From the NCBI RefSeq assembly GCF_037094465.1, contig NZ_CP146609.1:1365501-1429500 (forward strand): 64,000 nucleotides of DNA. Reading direction: 5' to 3'. Position numbers and translations under genes: made by a program. The stretch comes from Pseudodesulfovibrio sp. 5S69. GTDB lineage: Bacteria; Desulfobacterota; Desulfovibrionia; Desulfovibrionales; Desulfovibrionaceae. Below are positions 43,063-49,105 of this stretch, piece after piece. The notes beneath the pieces are model-generated. The model was not told where the DNA came from, ran no database searches, and was given only the letters and a program-made list of their open reading frames with translations. Within the stretch, counting starts at the first letter, position 1, and each line of letters opens with the position of its first letter.

Positions 43063-43088
43063 AAAGGCAGCACCCGCTGCCTTTTTTT
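43063..43088 (+). terminator. Rho-independent terminator after the FmdB-type gene
   Basis: AAAGGCAGC-ACCC-GCTGCCTTT is a 9-bp stem continuing into a run of T, 10 bases after the stop codon. Confidence 0.88.
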
Positions 43089-43179: not shown

Positions 43180-44478
43180 ATGCTTGAACGGTATTCCCGT
43201 CCCGAGATGCGGGCGTTATGGACCCTGGAGAACAAGTTCCGGGTCTGGCTGGAGGTTGAGCTGGCGGTGGTCCGGGCCTGGACCGAGATGGGCGAGGTCC
43301 CGCAGGCCGCCTGCGACGAGATCCACGACAAGGCGGATTTCGACGTGGACCGCATCCTTGAGATCGAGGAGACCACCAAGCACGACGTCATCGCCTTTTT
43401 GTCCGCCGTGGAGGAAAAGGTCGGGCCGAGTTCCCGCTACATCCACCTGGGCTGCACCTCCTCCGACATCGTGGACACGGCCAACGGCCTGCTCCTGACC
43501 CGCGCCGGGGGGATCATCGCCGAGGGCATCGACCGTCTGCTCGCGGTCCTTAAGGGATTGGCCTTCAAGCACAAGGGGCTGCTGTGCATGGGCCGGACCC
43601 ACGGCATCCACGCCGAGCCGACCACCTATGGCCTGAAATTCACCGGATTCTACGCCGAGTTCGCCCGGCACAAGGTCCGGTTCGAGGCGGCCAGGGAGAA
43701 CATCCGCGTGGGCAAGCTGTCCGGCGCGGTGGGCACCTTCGCCCACTCCGGCCCCGAGCTGGAGGAGCGCACCTGCGCCTACCTCGGCCTGACGCCCGAC
43801 CCGCACTCCACCCAGATCGTCCAGCGCGACCGCTACGCACAGTATTTCACCGCCCTGGCCATGCTGGCCGGGGGCATCGAGCGCCTCGGCCTGGAGCTGC
43901 GGCACCTGCAGCGCACCGAGGTCTCCGAGGTGGAGGAGGGCTTCACCAAGGGCCAGAAGGGCTCCTCGGCCATGCCCCACAAGAAGAATCCCATCTCCGC
44001 CGAGAATCTCTGCGGCCTGTCCAGGGTCCTGCGGGGCAACGCCCTGGCGGCCATGGAAGACCAGGCCCTGTGGCACGAGCGGGACATCTCCCATTCCTCG
44101 GTGGAGCGGGTCATCATGCCGGACTCCACCGCGCTTATCGACTACATGCTCCACCGCATGGCCGGCGTGCTCGAACGGCTGGTGGTCAAGGAAGACGTCA
44201 TCGAACGCAACATGTTGAGTTCATTCGGCCTCTTCTACTCCCAGCGGGTCCTGAACAAGCTCATCAACACCGGTCTCAAACGCCAGGAGGCGTACGAGAT
44301 GGTCCAGAAGGTGGCCATGCGCTGCTGGGAAAACCGCGTCCAGTTCGAGGATGAGATCCGTAACGATCCGGAAGTAAACAACCATCTCGATTCTAACGAT
44401 CTTGACGAAGCTTTTGACCCTTCGTATTACAAACGGTATGAGGACGTGATCTTCGATCGCGTTTTTGAGGGAAAATAG
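43180..44478 (+). CDS. purB: Adenylosuccinate lyase
   Basis: A 432-residue enzyme of purine synthesis that forms AMP from adenylosuccinate and AICAR from SAICAR. The N-terminus MLERYSRPEMRALWTLENKF, HLGCTSSDIVDTAN, GRTHGIHAEP (catalytic His) and the signature GSSAMPHKKNP (residues 261-271) are diagnostic. Length is normal for the short bacterial form. It ends one base before the pyrE start, so purine and pyrimidine genes are joined in one transcript, which continues into cell-wall genes. Confidence 0.97.
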   Translation: MLERYSRPEMRALWTLENKFRVWLEVELAVVRAWTEMGEVPQAACDEIHDKADFDVDRILEIEETTKHDVIAFLSAVEEKVGPSSRYIHLGCTSSDIVDTANGLLLTRAGGIIAEGIDRLLAVLKGLAFKHKGLLCMGRTHGIHAEPTTYGLKFTGFYAEFARHKVRFEAARENIRVGKLSGAVGTFAHSGPELEERTCAYLGLTPDPHSTQIVQRDRYAQYFTALAMLAGGIERLGLELRHLQRTEVSEVEEGFTKGQKGSSAMPHKKNPISAENLCGLSRVLRGNALAAMEDQALWHERDISHSSVERVIMPDSTALIDYMLHRMAGVLERLVVKEDVIERNMLSSFGLFYSQRVLNKLINTGLKRQEAYEMVQKVAMRCWENRVQFEDEIRNDPEVNNHLDSNDLDEAFDPSYYKRYEDVIFDRVFEGK

Positions 44479-44479
44479 G

Positions 44480-45037
44480 ATGAAGGAACTGAAATCAAGG
44501 CTGGCCAAGCTTCTGCTCGAACTCTCCTACAAGGAGGGTGACTTCACGCTGACGTCGGGGAAAAAGAGCGACTATTATTTCGACTGCAAGCAGACGGCGC
44601 TGAACGCCGAGGGCGGCTACCTCATCGGCCGGCTGTTCGTCGAAATGCTCAAGGACTACGCGGTGCAGGGCGTGGGCGGCATGACGCTGGGGGCGGACCC
44701 GCTGGTCACCTCGGTGACCGTGGTCTCCTTTCTGGAGGGGCGCCCCCTGCCGGGGTTCATCATCCGCAAGAAGTCCAAGGGGCACGGCACCAACCAGTAC
44801 CTCGAAGGGCTGGCCAACTTCAGCGAAGGCGACAAGGTCGTCCTGCTGGAGGACGTGTGCACCACCGGCGGCACGCTGATCACGGCGGCCGAGCGGGTGC
44901 GCGATGCCGGGCTCGACATCGTCGGCGTCCTGGCCGTCCTGGACCGCGAGGAAGGCGGCCGGGAGCGCTTGAAGGAGGCGGGGCTCGAACTCAACGCTAT
45001 CTTCACCCGCCAGGAACTGCTGGCTGCAGGGAAATAG
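44480..45037 (+). CDS. pyrE: Orotate phosphoribosyltransferase
   Basis: A 185-residue enzyme that joins orotate to PRPP to make OMP in pyrimidine synthesis. SGKKSDYYFDCKQTALN and GGMTLGADPLVTSV match the family. The PRPP-binding loop is VVLLEDVCTTGGTLI, with DVCTTGG intact, and RKKSKGHGT is the flexible catalytic loop. The start at 44480 follows AGGGAAAATAGG. It is immediately after purB and 59 bases before the Csd6-like gene. Confidence 0.95.
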   Translation: MKELKSRLAKLLLELSYKEGDFTLTSGKKSDYYFDCKQTALNAEGGYLIGRLFVEMLKDYAVQGVGGMTLGADPLVTSVTVVSFLEGRPLPGFIIRKKSKGHGTNQYLEGLANFSEGDKVVLLEDVCTTGGTLITAAERVRDAGLDIVGVLAVLDREEGGRERLKEAGLELNAIFTRQELLAAGK

Positions 45038-45096: not shown

Positions 45097-46356
45097 ATGC
45101 GGGTAGTTTTCATCATCCTGACAATCATCTTGTCCGCAGCCACGGCCCTGGCCGGCGGCTGGACGCCGTTGCTCTCTTCCCATACCTACGGGCCGAAGCG
45201 GATCATCGCCGTGGACAAGGAGGCCCAGGAGCTTATCGTTCTCGAACAGCAGTCCCCCCTGCACGAGGTGCGGCGCTTCCCCTGCACAACCGGCCAGTCC
45301 GCGGGCGACAAGGCCGTGGAAGGCGACATGCGTACCCCCGAGGGCGTGTACTTCGTGGGCCACCGCATCAACCGCAAGCTGGACTGGGGGTTGTACGGCA
45401 ACATCGCCTATTCCCTCAATTATCCCAACCCCATCGACCGCATCAAGGGCAAGACCGGGTCCGGCATCTGGCTGCACGGCCGGGGCAAGACCTTCCTGCC
45501 GCGCGACACTATGGGCTGCGTGGCCCTCAAGGTCCCGGACATGAAGGACGTGGCCCTGGATGCCGTCTACGGCACCCCGGTGGTCATCGCCGACGACGTC
45601 AACTGGTCGGGCGAGCCGGGCGAGAGCGAGGTTACGGCCCTGACCCTGGCCAAGACCCTTGAGGCCTGGGCCCGCGACTGGGGCGCCAAGGACGATAAAT
45701 TCTTCTCCTATTACGACGCCCCGCTGCTGGAACTGTCCGAAGGGCTGGATTTCGCCGGGTTCGAGGAGAACAAGCGTAACATCTTCGCCTCCCAGCCCTG
45801 GATTCAGGTCATGGTCGACAACGTCCGGGCCGTCCCCGGCCCCGGCTACTGGGTGACCTGGTTCGACCAGTACTACCGCACCAAGGGCATGGCTTCGACC
45901 ACGGGTAAACGGTTTTACTGGATCAAGGACGACCAGGGCGACTGGCGCATCGCCGGGCGCGAGTACGTCCCGGCTTCGGAGCAGCTGGACGCCAAGTACC
46001 TGGCCTCCAAGACCGGACAGGCCGAGGCCCTGGTCGAGAAGTGGCGCGAGGCGTGGCTCGCAGGGGACGTGGAAGCCTACGAGAAATTTTACGAATCCGA
46101 CGCCGAACAGGGCGGCCGCAAGGGCGCGGCCAGCATCGCCGAATACAAAAAGACGTTGTGGGAGGAGAAGCCTCCTGTTAGGTTGGAGGTTGATGATTTG
46201 AAAGTCGCTTTGCATCCCATGGGGCTCAAGGTGGCCTTTGACCAGGTGTTCGCCGACGCCAGCGGCTACTCGGACCGGGGCCGCAAGACCCTGATCCTGG
46301 TGCCCAAAGGCGATACCTGGAAAATCGACAGCGAGCAGTGGAGACGGATGAGATGA
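45097..46356 (+). CDS. Csd6/Pgp3-like LD-carboxypeptidase (YkuD + NTF2-like)
   Basis: A 419-residue exported protein. The signal peptide (MRVVFIILTIILSAATALA) leads into a YkuD domain with catalytic His127 (GIWLHGRGK) and Cys141 (DTMGCVALKVPD). Residues about 300-419 form an NTF2/SnoaL-like domain (KWREAWLAGDVEAYEKFYES to DTWKIDSEQW). This YkuD plus NTF2-like layout is that of Helicobacter Csd6 and Campylobacter Pgp3, which trim muramyl tetrapeptides to tripeptides and are needed for helical shape. The gene overlaps the next by four bases and is two genes upstream of a Csd4-like enzyme that acts on the tripeptide. A cross-linking activity cannot be excluded. Confidence 0.85.
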   Translation: MRVVFIILTIILSAATALAGGWTPLLSSHTYGPKRIIAVDKEAQELIVLEQQSPLHEVRRFPCTTGQSAGDKAVEGDMRTPEGVYFVGHRINRKLDWGLYGNIAYSLNYPNPIDRIKGKTGSGIWLHGRGKTFLPRDTMGCVALKVPDMKDVALDAVYGTPVVIADDVNWSGEPGESEVTALTLAKTLEAWARDWGAKDDKFFSYYDAPLLELSEGLDFAGFEENKRNIFASQPWIQVMVDNVRAVPGPGYWVTWFDQYYRTKGMASTTGKRFYWIKDDQGDWRIAGREYVPASEQLDAKYLASKTGQAEALVEKWREAWLAGDVEAYEKFYESDAEQGGRKGAASIAEYKKTLWEEKPPVRLEVDDLKVALHPMGLKVAFDQVFADASGYSDRGRKTLILVPKGDTWKIDSEQWRRMR

Positions 46357-47063
46357 GCGATTCCAAGTACAGCGTGCTCTTCATGCGCGACGACCGGGAC
46401 GTGACCCGGTATCGCCTCAGCCCGTTCTGGTTGAAGATGTTCGTCTTCAGCCAGGTCTTTCTCCTGCTCTGCGCCGTGGGCGGCATCTACATGGGCGTGC
46501 GCGGCTTCCGGGTCAACGCGGCCCTCCAGTCCCAGAAAAAGGACCTGGAGCAGCGGCTGGTCGACGCCGAGGTCCGTCTGGAGCGGCTGGGCAACATGGA
46601 GAAGATCCTGGAGTCCTACGACCCGGCCGAGTTGCAGTCCCTGCTGTCCGCGGCCACCACGGAGGCGGAGCAGCAGCCCGAGCCGCGCGAAGAGATCAAC
46701 CTGAACAAAATATTCACCCGCACGGACACCCGCCAGGTGGGGGTGGAGAACATGCAGGCCAAGCTGGCTGGGCGCAAGCTGACCGTTTCCTTCGAGCTGA
46801 ACAATTTGCAGGCGTCCAAGTCCATGGCCGGGCAGGCGGACTTCATCTACCTGACCAAGAGCGGCCAGACCGAGGACGCCCAGACCAACAAGGACGACCT
46901 CTCGTTCCAGATTCAACGCTTCAAGCGCATCCGGACCACCTTCCTCCTGCCCGAAGGCATGGAGCGCAAGGATCTCTTCGGGTTGCGTCTTGAGATAAAG
47001 GGAAAGGATGGCGATGTCATTTTTGCCGAGACGTATCCCTTCTATCACATTCTGGCTTCTTAG
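46353..47063 (+). CDS. Membrane-anchored coiled-coil protein between the Csd6- and Csd4-like genes
   Basis: A 236-residue protein with a 25-residue cytoplasmic start (MSDSKYSVLFMRDDRDVTRY), one membrane helix (about 28-49), a coiled coil (LQSQKKDLEQRLVDAEVRLE), an acidic linker (EAEQQPEPREE) and a periplasmic beta-rich domain (KLTVSFELNNLQ to YPFYHIL). The start resembles membrane anchors of M23 peptidases as I remember them, but no peptidase domain is present. It starts in the stop codon of the Csd6-like gene and overlaps the Csd4-like gene by 56 bases, so all three are translationally coupled. A scaffold role for the two carboxypeptidases is inferred from position. Confidence 0.75.
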   Translation: MSDSKYSVLFMRDDRDVTRYRLSPFWLKMFVFSQVFLLLCAVGGIYMGVRGFRVNAALQSQKKDLEQRLVDAEVRLERLGNMEKILESYDPAELQSLLSAATTEAEQQPEPREEINLNKIFTRTDTRQVGVENMQAKLAGRKLTVSFELNNLQASKSMAGQADFIYLTKSGQTEDAQTNKDDLSFQIQRFKRIRTTFLLPEGMERKDLFGLRLEIKGKDGDVIFAETYPFYHILAS

Positions 47064-48762
47064 CCTGATCCTCCTCGCCGCCGCCTCCCCCGCCCTTGCC
47101 GGGTCGTGGGAGCATTCCTTTTTTGCGGGCACCCAATATCCGCTCAGGGTCGTCTACCTCCAGGGCGAACAGCCCGGCCCCACGGTCATGGTCCAGGGCG
47201 GCATCCAGGGCGACGAGTCCTCGGGCTACATCACGGCCCAACTGCTGTCCAAGGGCAGGGTCCTGCGCGGCAACCTGATCGTCCTGCCGCGGGCCAACGT
47301 GCCGTCCATCAATCTGTGCAAGCGCCAGATCAACGTGGACATGAACCGGCGCTTCGACCAGAACTACAACCGCTTCTACGAGGACCGCGTGGCCCGGGTC
47401 ATCCGCTTCCTGCTCAACCAGGCGGACGCCTTCATCCACCTGCACGAGGGCAGCGGCTTCTACAACCCGACCTATGTGGACAACCTGCGCAATCCCAAGC
47501 GCTACGGGCAGTCCATCATCGTGGACACCCTGGTCTACAACAAGATCGACCTGGCCCGGACCGTGAACCCGGTGCTGGACGAGCTGAACAACGAGATCGG
47601 CGCCAGCGACTACAAGTTCCGGCTGTTCAACACCCGGACCTTCGACAAGGGGACGAGCTATCCCGAGATGCGCAAGTCCCTGACCTGCTACGCCCTGGCC
47701 GAGCACAACATCCCGGCCATGGCCGTGGAGGTCTCCAAGTCCATCCGGCAGATCGCCTGGAAGGTCCGCCAGCAACTGACCGCCACGCGCATGCTCCTGC
47801 ACCGGTTCGGTGTGGAGGTCGCCCCGCCCGAGTTCTCGGACGAGGACGTCCGGGCCTACGCCCGCACCGGGGTCGAGGTCACGGTCAACGGCCGCACGCT
47901 CGGCCGCGACGGGGTCATCAACCTGGCGCCGGGCACGACCCTGGCGGTCAAGCCCGTCTCCTCGGGCCCGAGCGAATTTTCGCCGGAGCTGGCCCTGTTC
48001 GCCTCGGACCGGCCCGGCGTGAACCTGATCAACGCCCGGCGCATGGTCCTGGAGCCGTTCTCCGAGTTGGAGCTGCGCTCGGACGGCAGCAAGGTAGCCG
48101 AGGCCAAGATCCGTTGGACCGGCAAGCTGCCCAACGCACCCAGCGACGACACCCCGGTGTTCGTCTGCTGGCTCAACGGTAACCCGGTCTTCGTGCGCGA
48201 CGGCGAAACCCTGAAGGCGGTGCTCGGCGACCAGCTCATCCTTGAGGGCATGTGGGGCAGCGATCTCAAGGAAGTGATCAACCTCAAGGGGTTCGTGGCC
48301 ATTCCCTGGGCCAACAACGGCCAGGATCTGGGCTGGGAGATCATCCTGGACCCGGACAATTTCATGGCCAAATACGCGCTCAAGTCCGACCAGGCGGGCG
48401 GCGCCCGCTTCCGGGTGGTCCGCGAGACGCCCGGCGCACCCCAGGCGTCGTTCTACGTGGACATCCGGCCGCGTACGGTTCTGGCCCTGCGGCTGGGCGA
48501 CGAGCATGGCCAGAACCTGCTCGTCCCCTGGATCGCCGGCGGCAGTTACCGGCTCCCCGAGGGGCAGTACGTGTTCGAGTCCGCCTGGAGCAACGGCCCG
48601 GACGACAAGCTGGTGGCCACGGCCGGGGACAGGCCCCTCAACGAGGGCCAGTCCTTCACGGTGGACTACGGCACCCCGCTCAAGCTGACCGTGCGCCAGG
48701 CCACCACCTTCGGCGACATCGGGACCATGACCTTCACCGCGAGCGGCCTGGCCAGCCGGTAG
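47008..48762 (+). CDS. Csd4/Pgp2-like M99 DL-carboxypeptidase
   Basis: A 584-residue exported zinc carboxypeptidase. A signal peptide ends near SPALAG. Zinc ligands match Helicobacter Csd4, which uses Gln in place of the usual first His: Gln67 and Glu70 in GGIQGDESSG and His146 in FIHLHEGSGFY. DMNRRF, YVDNLRNPKRYGQSIIVD, NTRTFDKGTSYPEMRKSLT and the general-base region AVEVSKSI also agree. Csd4 removes mDAP from muramyl tripeptides and is required for helical shape. The C-terminal 280 residues are beta-rich, longer than in Csd4. ATGs at 47008 and 47014 are both usable. A large terminator follows. Confidence 0.85.
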   Translation: MAMSFLPRRIPSITFWLLSLILLAAASPALAGSWEHSFFAGTQYPLRVVYLQGEQPGPTVMVQGGIQGDESSGYITAQLLSKGRVLRGNLIVLPRANVPSINLCKRQINVDMNRRFDQNYNRFYEDRVARVIRFLLNQADAFIHLHEGSGFYNPTYVDNLRNPKRYGQSIIVDTLVYNKIDLARTVNPVLDELNNEIGASDYKFRLFNTRTFDKGTSYPEMRKSLTCYALAEHNIPAMAVEVSKSIRQIAWKVRQQLTATRMLLHRFGVEVAPPEFSDEDVRAYARTGVEVTVNGRTLGRDGVINLAPGTTLAVKPVSSGPSEFSPELALFASDRPGVNLINARRMVLEPFSELELRSDGSKVAEAKIRWTGKLPNAPSDDTPVFVCWLNGNPVFVRDGETLKAVLGDQLILEGMWGSDLKEVINLKGFVAIPWANNGQDLGWEIILDPDNFMAKYALKSDQAGGARFRVVRETPGAPQASFYVDIRPRTVLALRLGDEHGQNLLVPWIAGGSYRLPEGQYVFESAWSNGPDDKLVATAGDRPLNEGQSFTVDYGTPLKLTVRQATTFGDIGTMTFTASGLASR

Positions 48763-48853: not shown

Positions 48854-49105
48854 TCAGCCCATGAACAGCCCGACGAGGGCGAGCGGCACGCCCAGGCAGA
48901 GGAGTACTGCCGCGAACGTGGCGGCCCCGTACACGAACAGAAGCGCGGCGGTGGCCACGAGCAGCGCGCCGCAGGCAGCGGCTACGCGCGGAGACAGGGT
49001 CATTTTGCGCTGGAGGGCGTCGCTGGGCCGGGACGCGGCCAGGCCGCAGCGACGGCATGCGCGGTCTTGCGGCTGGAGGGCCGCGCCACAGTTGTCGCAC
49101 TTCAT
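48854..49105 (-). CDS. Small zinc-ribbon membrane protein
   Basis: An 83-residue protein. A zinc ribbon at the N-terminus (MKCDNCGAALQPQDRACRRCG; Cys3, Cys6, Cys17 and Cys20) is followed by a short linker and two hydrophobic helices (about 40-60 and 63-82). This zinc-ribbon plus membrane hairpin design is common in small bacterial proteins of unknown role. It is separated from the next upstream gene by about 60 bases and stands alone. Confidence 0.7.
   Translation of the reverse strand: MKCDNCGAALQPQDRACRRCGLAASRPSDALQRKMTLSPRVAAACGALLVATAALLFVYGAATFAAVLLCLGVPLALVGLFMG

Follow-up and report, generated by a model that had tools for sequence, protein, structure and literature searches.

It is fairly likely that three overlapping genes of Pseudodesulfovibrio sp. 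5S69, located within a 64,000-nucleotide stretch of contig NZ_CP146609.1 (the window), constitute a single cell-curvature module. The genes (ORF1–ORF3; + strand, 45097–48762) encode two predicted peptidoglycan carboxypeptidases and a membrane protein, ORF2, which in this reading is anchored to bactofilin and places the LD-carboxypeptidase (ORF1) and the DL-carboxypeptidase (ORF3) on one side of the wall. The support comes from protein families, catalytic residues, gene order, gene fusions, linkage to bactofilin genes outside the order Desulfovibrionales and co-occurrence with bactofilin inside it. In the open-licence literature no publication was found that combines csd6, csd4 and Desulfovibrio, and a search for Desulfovibrio with bactofilin, judged by titles, found nothing related.

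Locus organization and the two predicted carboxypeptidases

All three reading frames are open and, as an earlier sequence-only reading had described, they overlap; the overlaps measure 4 nt (ORF1/ORF2) and 56 nt (ORF2/ORF3). ORF1 occupies 45097–46356, ORF2 46353–47063 and ORF3 47008–48762, all on the + strand; the ORF2 start codon (ATG, 46353) sits inside an ATGA that contains the ORF1 stop, and ORF3 has an alternative ATG start at 47014. Upstream on the same strand are purB, coding for adenylosuccinate lyase (43180–44478; Pfam Lyase_1 and ADSL_C), and a pyrE-like phosphoribosyltransferase gene (44465–45037; Pfam Pribosyltran) that is separated from ORF1 by 59 nt. The purB gene is a conserved neighbour, with purB-like ORFs also upstream of the cassette in the relatives' loci examined, and a pyrE-like gene precedes the ORF1 relatives in several such loci. 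PADLOC gives no matches for the ORF1, ORF2 or ORF3 proteins, and the possibility that the cassette is a defence system was rejected on this basis.

ORF1 is predicted to be a secreted LD-carboxypeptidase of the Bd1075/Csd6/Pgp2 kind, on the strength of Pfam and PDB entries 7o21, 4xzz and 6xj6. It contains a YkuD catalytic domain (residues 35–164; 45199–45588) followed by two NTF2-like domains, the first assigned to Csd6_C (residues 184–285; 45646–45951) and the second extending close to the C-terminus (residues 311–417; 46027–46347). Pfam scores are 64.7 bits for YkuD and 89.8 bits, in two stretches, for the Csd6_C NTF2 family. The catalytic His127 (45475–45477) and Cys141 (45517–45519) are kept in 85 and 84, respectively, of 90 distinct homologues. 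The sequence-only reading had proposed a YkuD/NTF2 enzyme like Csd6; the families are confirmed and Csd6 is among the solved relatives (80 bits, followed by Pgp2 with 76), but ORF1 has two NTF2 domains where Csd6 and Pgp2 carry one, and PDB 7o21 scores higher (121 bits).

Entry 7O21 is Bd1075 of Bdellovibrio bacteriovorus according to PMC8938487, where the protein is described as an LD-carboxypeptidase that curves the cells and whose location at the convex face needs the NTF2 domain and W303. Bd1075, from a vibrioid host, resembles ORF1 in its YkuD and NTF2 domains, catalytic His/Cys pair and C-terminal NTF2 tryptophan, but has one NTF2 domain rather than two. ORF1 W415 (46339–46341), within the second NTF2-like domain, aligns with W303 at the end of the C-terminal NTF2 domain. 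Among proteins with a residue in this column, Trp is present in 49/52 from the order and 19/22 from other Desulfobacterota, the column being gapped in 12 of 64 and 4 of 26 proteins of these two groups. The main text of PMC8938487 contains neither 'operon' nor 'Csd4', and no partner membrane protein was noticed there.

ORF3 codes for a 584-residue M99 carboxypeptidase with a signal peptide that is probable by eye and a catalytic domain at residues 57–271 (47176–47820). Profile searching places it inside M99 and not outside (Peptidase_M99, 105 bits versus a Pfam cut-off of 27), and the zinc-site residues named in the sequence-only reading, Gln67 (47206–47208), Glu70 and His146, are all present together with the catalytic Glu241. 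Across 81 distinct M99 proteins, Gln67 is conserved in 76 and both Glu70 and His146 in all 81. Csd4 entries head the structure search (E 1.5e-21), with a loose whole-chain fit (TMq 0.41, rmsd 17). The proposed likeness to Csd4 holds for family and zinc site, but sister genera encode another, much more Csd4-like M99 (255–292 bits, against 107 for ORF3) elsewhere in the genome, and ORF3 looks like a diverged M99 protein rather than simply a Csd4. The cassette-type and Csd4-like forms never occur together (0/62 genomes with M99). A search of 35 genomes behind named loci gives 7 M99 matches, all labelled Desulfo- or deltaproteobacterial. ORF3 is dispensable, since G080 (P. pelocollis) and G086, both from Pseudodesulfovibrio, keep ORF1 and ORF2 and have no M99 match.

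The same two enzyme families and the Gln zinc ligand are found in Csd6/Csd4 of Helicobacter and Pgp2/Pgp1 of Campylobacter, with which the series from tetra- to tri- to dipeptide is likely shared, although ORF3 looks like a diverged M99. The Helicobacter csd6 and csd4 genes lie apart, as do pgp2 and pgp1 of Campylobacter, unlike those of the cassette.

ORF2, a candidate membrane adaptor

ORF2 (236 aa) is a bitopic membrane protein and candidate adaptor with a conserved cytoplasmic tail (residues 1–27; 46353–46433; R12, D13, R19 and R21 invariant), a transmembrane segment leading into a long helix or coiled coil (residues 24–88; 46422–46616; structure model m560ec04667cd) and a periplasmic Ig-like beta domain (residues 129–229; 46737–47039). 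It has no Pfam family above cut-off; even at a threshold of E 10 Pfam gives a single, weak match, to DSHCT, and Foldseek gives weak, mixed matches only. Matches to DSHCT and MiaB (E about 0.1, below cut-offs) were rejected, as was DUF6776, which is absent among 25 of 27 families listed. Twenty-nine homologues have no Pfam match better than E 0.003, again among 25 of the 27 families listed. A survey of 120 Desulfovibrionales genomes finds homologues in 70, so ORF2 is not a chance ORF. Middle proteins from outside the order form one family with it (hhalign probability 99.7, E 1e-25; 47 order and 19 phylum proteins gathered by an iterated ORF2 profile, two M23 proteins excluded), and the family is spread through the Desulfobacterota.

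In three genomes (L309, L310 and L311) an ORF2-type periplasmic Ig-like domain is fused to a YkuD-NTF2 enzyme (iE 5e-25 to 3e-28), and Pfam finds both YkuD and Csd6_C in the fusion proteins. The earlier suggestion that the middle protein holds both enzymes gains support from these fusions and from the conserved gene order, with ORF2 as the putative binding partner.

The architecture agrees, in the structure model, with that of LmdC of Hyphomonas and Rhodospirillum, which PMC10945521 describes as bitopic with a periplasmic coiled coil and a short cytoplasmic hairpin tail that binds the bactofilin BacA; the ORF2 hairpin is not confidently modelled (residues 1–16 pLDDT under 50, no hairpin visible). 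The tails of ORF2 and LmdC-like M23 peptidases show a modest likeness (hhalign probability 4–42; HMM E 1e-5 to 6e-4), equalled by 19 and 50 of 100000 permutations. ORF2 is not itself an LmdC because it has no M23 domain, Pfam finding none in ORF2 or, among 25 of 27 families listed, in the 29 homologues. LmdC bears its own M23 peptidase, whereas ORF2 has the Ig-like domain instead and its presumed cargo is two separate enzymes of other families. Csd5 of Helicobacter pylori crosses the membrane once, as ORF2 does, and contacts the bactofilin CcmA through its cytoplasmic N-terminus (PMC9507126). Csd5 has a periplasmic SH3 domain with MurF and ATP synthase as partners, whereas the ORF2 periplasmic domain is Ig-like, and no SH3 domain is found by Pfam in ORF2 or in 29 family members (25 of 27 families listed). 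The account in PMC9507126 also has H. pylori Csd6 not observed with CcmA.

Gene order and linkage to bactofilin

The gene order is not confined to the sulfate reducer studied: among 33 M99 loci from beyond the order, the complete trio or a fused form of it is present in 21, and the middle protein is missing from 12. In every genome with both ORF2 and a cassette-type M99 (29/29), the M99 match begins 101–310 nt behind the ORF2 match. Two genomes of a Desulfomicrobium-type genus (G052 and G014; g26) keep a YkuD gene and lack the rest of the module.

Outside the order a bactofilin gene lies beside the cassette in 13 of the 33 M99 loci, representing 7 of 19 families, and 20 loci have no neighbouring bactofilin. 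The 13 neighbours are all on the same strand, 11 of them within 118 nt, and Pfam confirmed bactofilin for all 11 that were tested. An adjoining bactofilin gene, such as LmdC has, accompanies some of the ORF2 relatives outside the order, but not ORF2 inside it, where the nearest same-contig pair is 30 kb apart (70 genomes). The cassette's own genome encodes bactofilin elsewhere, with one copy behind mreC, PBP2 and rodA. Among 120 genomes of the order, bactofilin accompanies ORF2 in 69 of 70 cases and M99 in 61 of 62, these being counts from related genomes and not independent samples. On a 34-row PurB tree the state in which all are absent requires six changes, at least three of them forced. 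Bactofilin also does other work, because seven genomes have it with none of the other three genes.

Judged from these relatives, ORF2, unnamed until now, probably ties the enzymes to the bactofilin skeleton. The 30 kb separation inside the order, the copy behind mreC, PBP2 and rodA, and the modest likeness of the tail to M23 proteins would also suit an ORF2 that joins both enzymes but is placed by the elongasome, MreB or lipids, with bactofilin co-occurring as a general shape gene. We regard this as unlikely, since bactofilin adjoins the cassette in seven families outside the order and is almost always present where ORF2 is.

Proposed mechanism and significance

For the bactofilin-anchored module we infer a mechanism in which ORF1 would convert stem tetrapeptides to tripeptides in the periplasm, by LD-carboxypeptidase activity, and ORF3 would convert tripeptides to dipeptides as a DL-carboxypeptidase. 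ORF2 would pass through the inner membrane a single time. In the cytoplasm its short hairpin tail would dock on bactofilin filaments; in the periplasm its Ig-like domain would hold ORF1, and ORF3 either through ORF1 or directly. With trimming thereby concentrated at one side of the wall, the cell would bend.

The enzyme families by themselves leave a role in shape unfixed, and the cassette could instead serve the turnover or remodelling of the wall (e.g. division, osmotic or flagellar) by trimming stem peptides, without setting curvature. The M99 founders set cell shape, however, and the targeting Trp of Bd1075 and the linkage to bactofilin likewise make this reading quite improbable. The characterised ORF1 relatives Csd6, Pgp2 and Bd1075 also set shape, as reported in PMC8938487. 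A weak match to the NCBIfam DpaA/LdtF model (25 bits versus a cut-off of 365) speaks for ORF1 being an LD-transpeptidase or a DpaA-like enzyme freeing proteins from peptidoglycan, but this is very hard to credit, as ORF1 matches Bd1075 and Csd6 across the YkuD and NTF2 domains.

Data on cell shape come from a handful of named species. Cells of P. methanolicus are 'straight or slightly curved', which counts against the curvature reading.

A broader form of the curvature module, on which the case is evenly balanced, is a shape machine already present in ancestral Desulfobacterota. In it, ORF2-type proteins would form a dedicated family of bitopic adaptors through which a bactofilin filament directly positions two enzymes, an LD-carboxypeptidase of the Bd1075 type and a DL-carboxypeptidase of family M99, at one side of the wall.

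The authors of the Bd1075 study state in their Discussion that the mechanistic basis for targeting a protein to one lateral side-wall is not known (PMC8938487). Here, gene order, fusion, and joint presence and loss link a Bd1075-type enzyme both to bactofilin and to a hitherto unnamed adaptor family, and the question of one-sided targeting becomes directly testable in tractable, non-pathogenic sulfate reducers. If the ancestral shape machine is real, it would unite stem-peptide trimming and bactofilin-guided M23 cleavage, curvature mechanisms described separately so far, and would offer an explanation of how enzymes like Bd1075 reach a single face of the cell. For the vibrio shape behind the name Desulfovibrio, the cassette is a candidate as the genetic basis.

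Organization of the cassette and its two enzymes

The sequence-only reading had placed three overlapping genes at 45097–48762, and all three are open there. ORF1 (45097–46356, plus strand), encoding a YkuD-NTF2-NTF2 protein of the LD-carboxypeptidase kind, shares an ATGA with the start of ORF2 (46353–47063, plus strand), a candidate bitopic membrane adaptor; ORF3 (47008–48762, plus strand) overlaps the 3′ end of ORF2 by 56 nt, or by 50 nt from an alternative ATG at 47014. Upstream are purB and then a pyrE-like gene (Pfam). The genome is a single contig of 4,161,161 bases, the window has 65.4 percent GC, and a Pseudodesulfovibrio hydrargyri protein is 97 percent identical to ORF2. A terminator-like hairpin with a T run lies just 5′ of purB (43063–43084, plus strand) and might bound the transcription unit on its upstream side; terminator-like sites are no commoner in our scan than in shuffles (3 vs 4.0). 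A small minus-strand ORF (48854–49105), convergent to ORF3, begins like a zinc ribbon (CDNCG..CRRCG) and includes hydrophobic segments.

ORF3 was correctly proposed as an M99 carboxypeptidase (Pfam profile, 105 bits). Its best match is Csd4 both by sequence (6.5e-23) and by structure model (1.5e-21; pLDDT 82, with a loose whole-chain fit). The proposed Gln67/Glu70/His146 site is present and is kept in 76/81, 81/81 and 81/81 of the M99 proteins compared, as is E241 in all 81.

ORF1 matches YkuD and, in two stretches, Csd6_C (Pfam; a genome search puts both in ORF1). Among solved structures the Bdellovibrio LD-carboxypeptidase Bd1075 (PDB 7o21) ranks first at 121 bits, ahead of Csd6 (80) and Pgp2 (76). 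At the end of the second NTF2 domain EQWR of ORF1 aligns with EEWA of Bd1075, whose Trp is W303 when counted from the catalytic Cys (chain position 151 is residue 156). According to the Bd1075 study, homologues from Bdellovibrio conserve W303, other LD-carboxypeptidases lack it, and truncation before it abolishes convex-face targeting (PMC8938487). Among distinct proteins from the loci, Trp occupies this column in 49/52 from the order Desulfovibrionales and 19/22 from other Desulfobacterota, leaving out those with a gap there (12/64 and 4/26); counts before stricter removal of repeats were 53/55 and 20/23. The YkuD catalytic His is kept in 85 and the Cys in 84 of 90 distinct ORF1 homologues. 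Several Desulfovibrio-type genomes have a much longer ORF1-relative frame of 749–886 aa (loci L092, L098, L099, L250 and L251), apparently with an insert between the NTF2 domains, although part of the extra length may be false upstream extension.

Two M99 groups and joint presence in the order

A profile search finds M99 in 62/120 genomes of the order, in two score groups: 34 genomes with best scores of 73.6–131.3 bits and 28 with 255–292 bits, never both together (0/62). The low-score enzyme starts 101–310 nt behind ORF2 (match to match) in all 29 low-score genomes that match ORF2, and M99 is behind ORF2 in none of the 21 high-score genomes that do. G053 has a second, weaker copy that is not behind ORF2. 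The remaining five low-score genomes lack an ORF2 match, M99 directly following a YkuD gene in three of them (G008, G028, G047). The two groups seem to be interchangeable solutions to a single task. The M99 of the 28 genomes (sister genera, L022-L049), which is much more Csd4-like and lies away from the cassette, looks like a replacement, perhaps gained by transfer; these genomes never carry the cassette type. Profile searches give no M99 match in P. pelocollis (G080) or G086, both with ORF1 and ORF2. Family f5 (L100, L101, L052-L059) is likewise without an M99 match; its genomes have, at another site, a YkuD-NTF2 gene closer to Csd6, which in L101 adjoins flagellar-looking genes (by eye); in L100, the sole f5 ORF2 locus inspected, no ORF1 relative precedes ORF2.

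Bactofilin accompanies ORF2 in 69/70 genomes (the exception, G069, is 77 percent complete), M99 in 61/62 and Csd6_C in 78/82. All four are absent from 28/120 genomes and bactofilin occurs alone in 7/120, with ten weak Csd6_C matches (all genus g26, of Desulfomicrobium type; at least two above the Pfam cut-off) and the bactofilin matches of G009, G041 and G070 (the last above cut-off) scored absent; if the ten and the G070 match are rescored as present, 17 genomes lack all four. With weak matches scored absent, the all-absent state (11 rows) requires 6 changes on a PurB tree of 34 genomes, at least three of them forced by well-supported branches. ORF2, M99 and bactofilin are gone from g26, and in G014 and G052 a YkuD gene persists after pyrE, its NTF2 faint or missing; the g26 genes in this position (L248, 641–1807; L263, 722–1945) have NTF2 lost or barely recognisable.

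The ORF2 family and bactofilin

Against 198 Desulfobacterota genomes a plain ORF2 profile matches six, all in the window's own family, and an M99 profile matches 42, of which 35 are outside it. Loci were taken around M99 in 33 of these 35 (G120 and G159, with matches under cut-off, were left out), up to about 6 kb either side and shorter at contig ends. YkuD-NTF2 and M99 genes occur together in 25/33 loci and M99 alone in 8/33; a middle gene is also present, or its domain fused, in 21/33 loci and 11/19 families, and in L309, L310 and L311 its beta domain is fused behind YkuD and NTF2. Profiles of the order and phylum proteins recover each other fully (47/47 and 19/19; worst E 9.5e-6 and 2.5e-3), with an hhalign probability of 99.7, and judged by these profiles the middle proteins outside the window's family are relatives of ORF2.

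In 13/33 M99 loci (7 families) a same-strand neighbour encodes bactofilin, at a distance of 118 nt or less in 11 and 904 nt in two; Pfam confirms its identity in all 11 tested. A study of LmdC, the M23 peptidase of the bactofilin module, describes bactofilin binding by its cytoplasmic tail, for which beta-hairpin residues are needed (PMC10945521). The ORF2 tail aligns without gaps to that of the order's LmdC-like M23 proteins, a fit equalled in 19/100000 column permutations (50/100000 with hydrophobic classes kept), and a profile built solely on the 19 middle proteins of the phylum set matches three LmdC-like M23 proteins (1.3e-5 to 5.6e-4), the matches being confined to their first 90 residues. 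This likeness is suggestive, not proof, of an LmdC-like bactofilin link for ORF2. The 5S69 genome has two bactofilins, one behind the MreC, PBP2 and RodA genes (L090, G000:C1:858500-868500, between rodA and atp-like genes, the latter by eye) and one at G000:C1:132878-133165. Its own LmdC-like M23 peptidase (G000:C1:2767210, L117) has a cytoplasmic tail resembling that of ORF2, and its gene is near neither bactofilin gene. Across the 70 genomes of the order with ORF2, 38 pairs of ORF2 and bactofilin matches share a contig, and in none are the two closer than 30 kb.

Cell shape and the combination of known parts

The cassette is present in P. cashew (probably G094), described as cashew-shaped (PMC7922080); P. 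karagichevae, for which the analysis covered ORF2 only, is described as curved (PMC11678503). Published descriptions give the genus as vibrios or curved rods and P. methanolicus as straight or slightly curved (PMC11505543), and Desulfomicrobium baculatum (probably G044), with no ORF2, M99 or bactofilin match in profile searches, as a short rod (PMC3035215). Cassette and shape agree in these few species, far too little for a correlation.

The enzymes are from known families; the combination of two stem-peptide carboxypeptidases with an unnamed candidate adaptor family and bactofilin was not found in the literature searched and exceeds what has been published on Csd6 in H. pylori. On a bold reading, a bactofilin-anchored adaptor would place both carboxypeptidases on one side of the wall.
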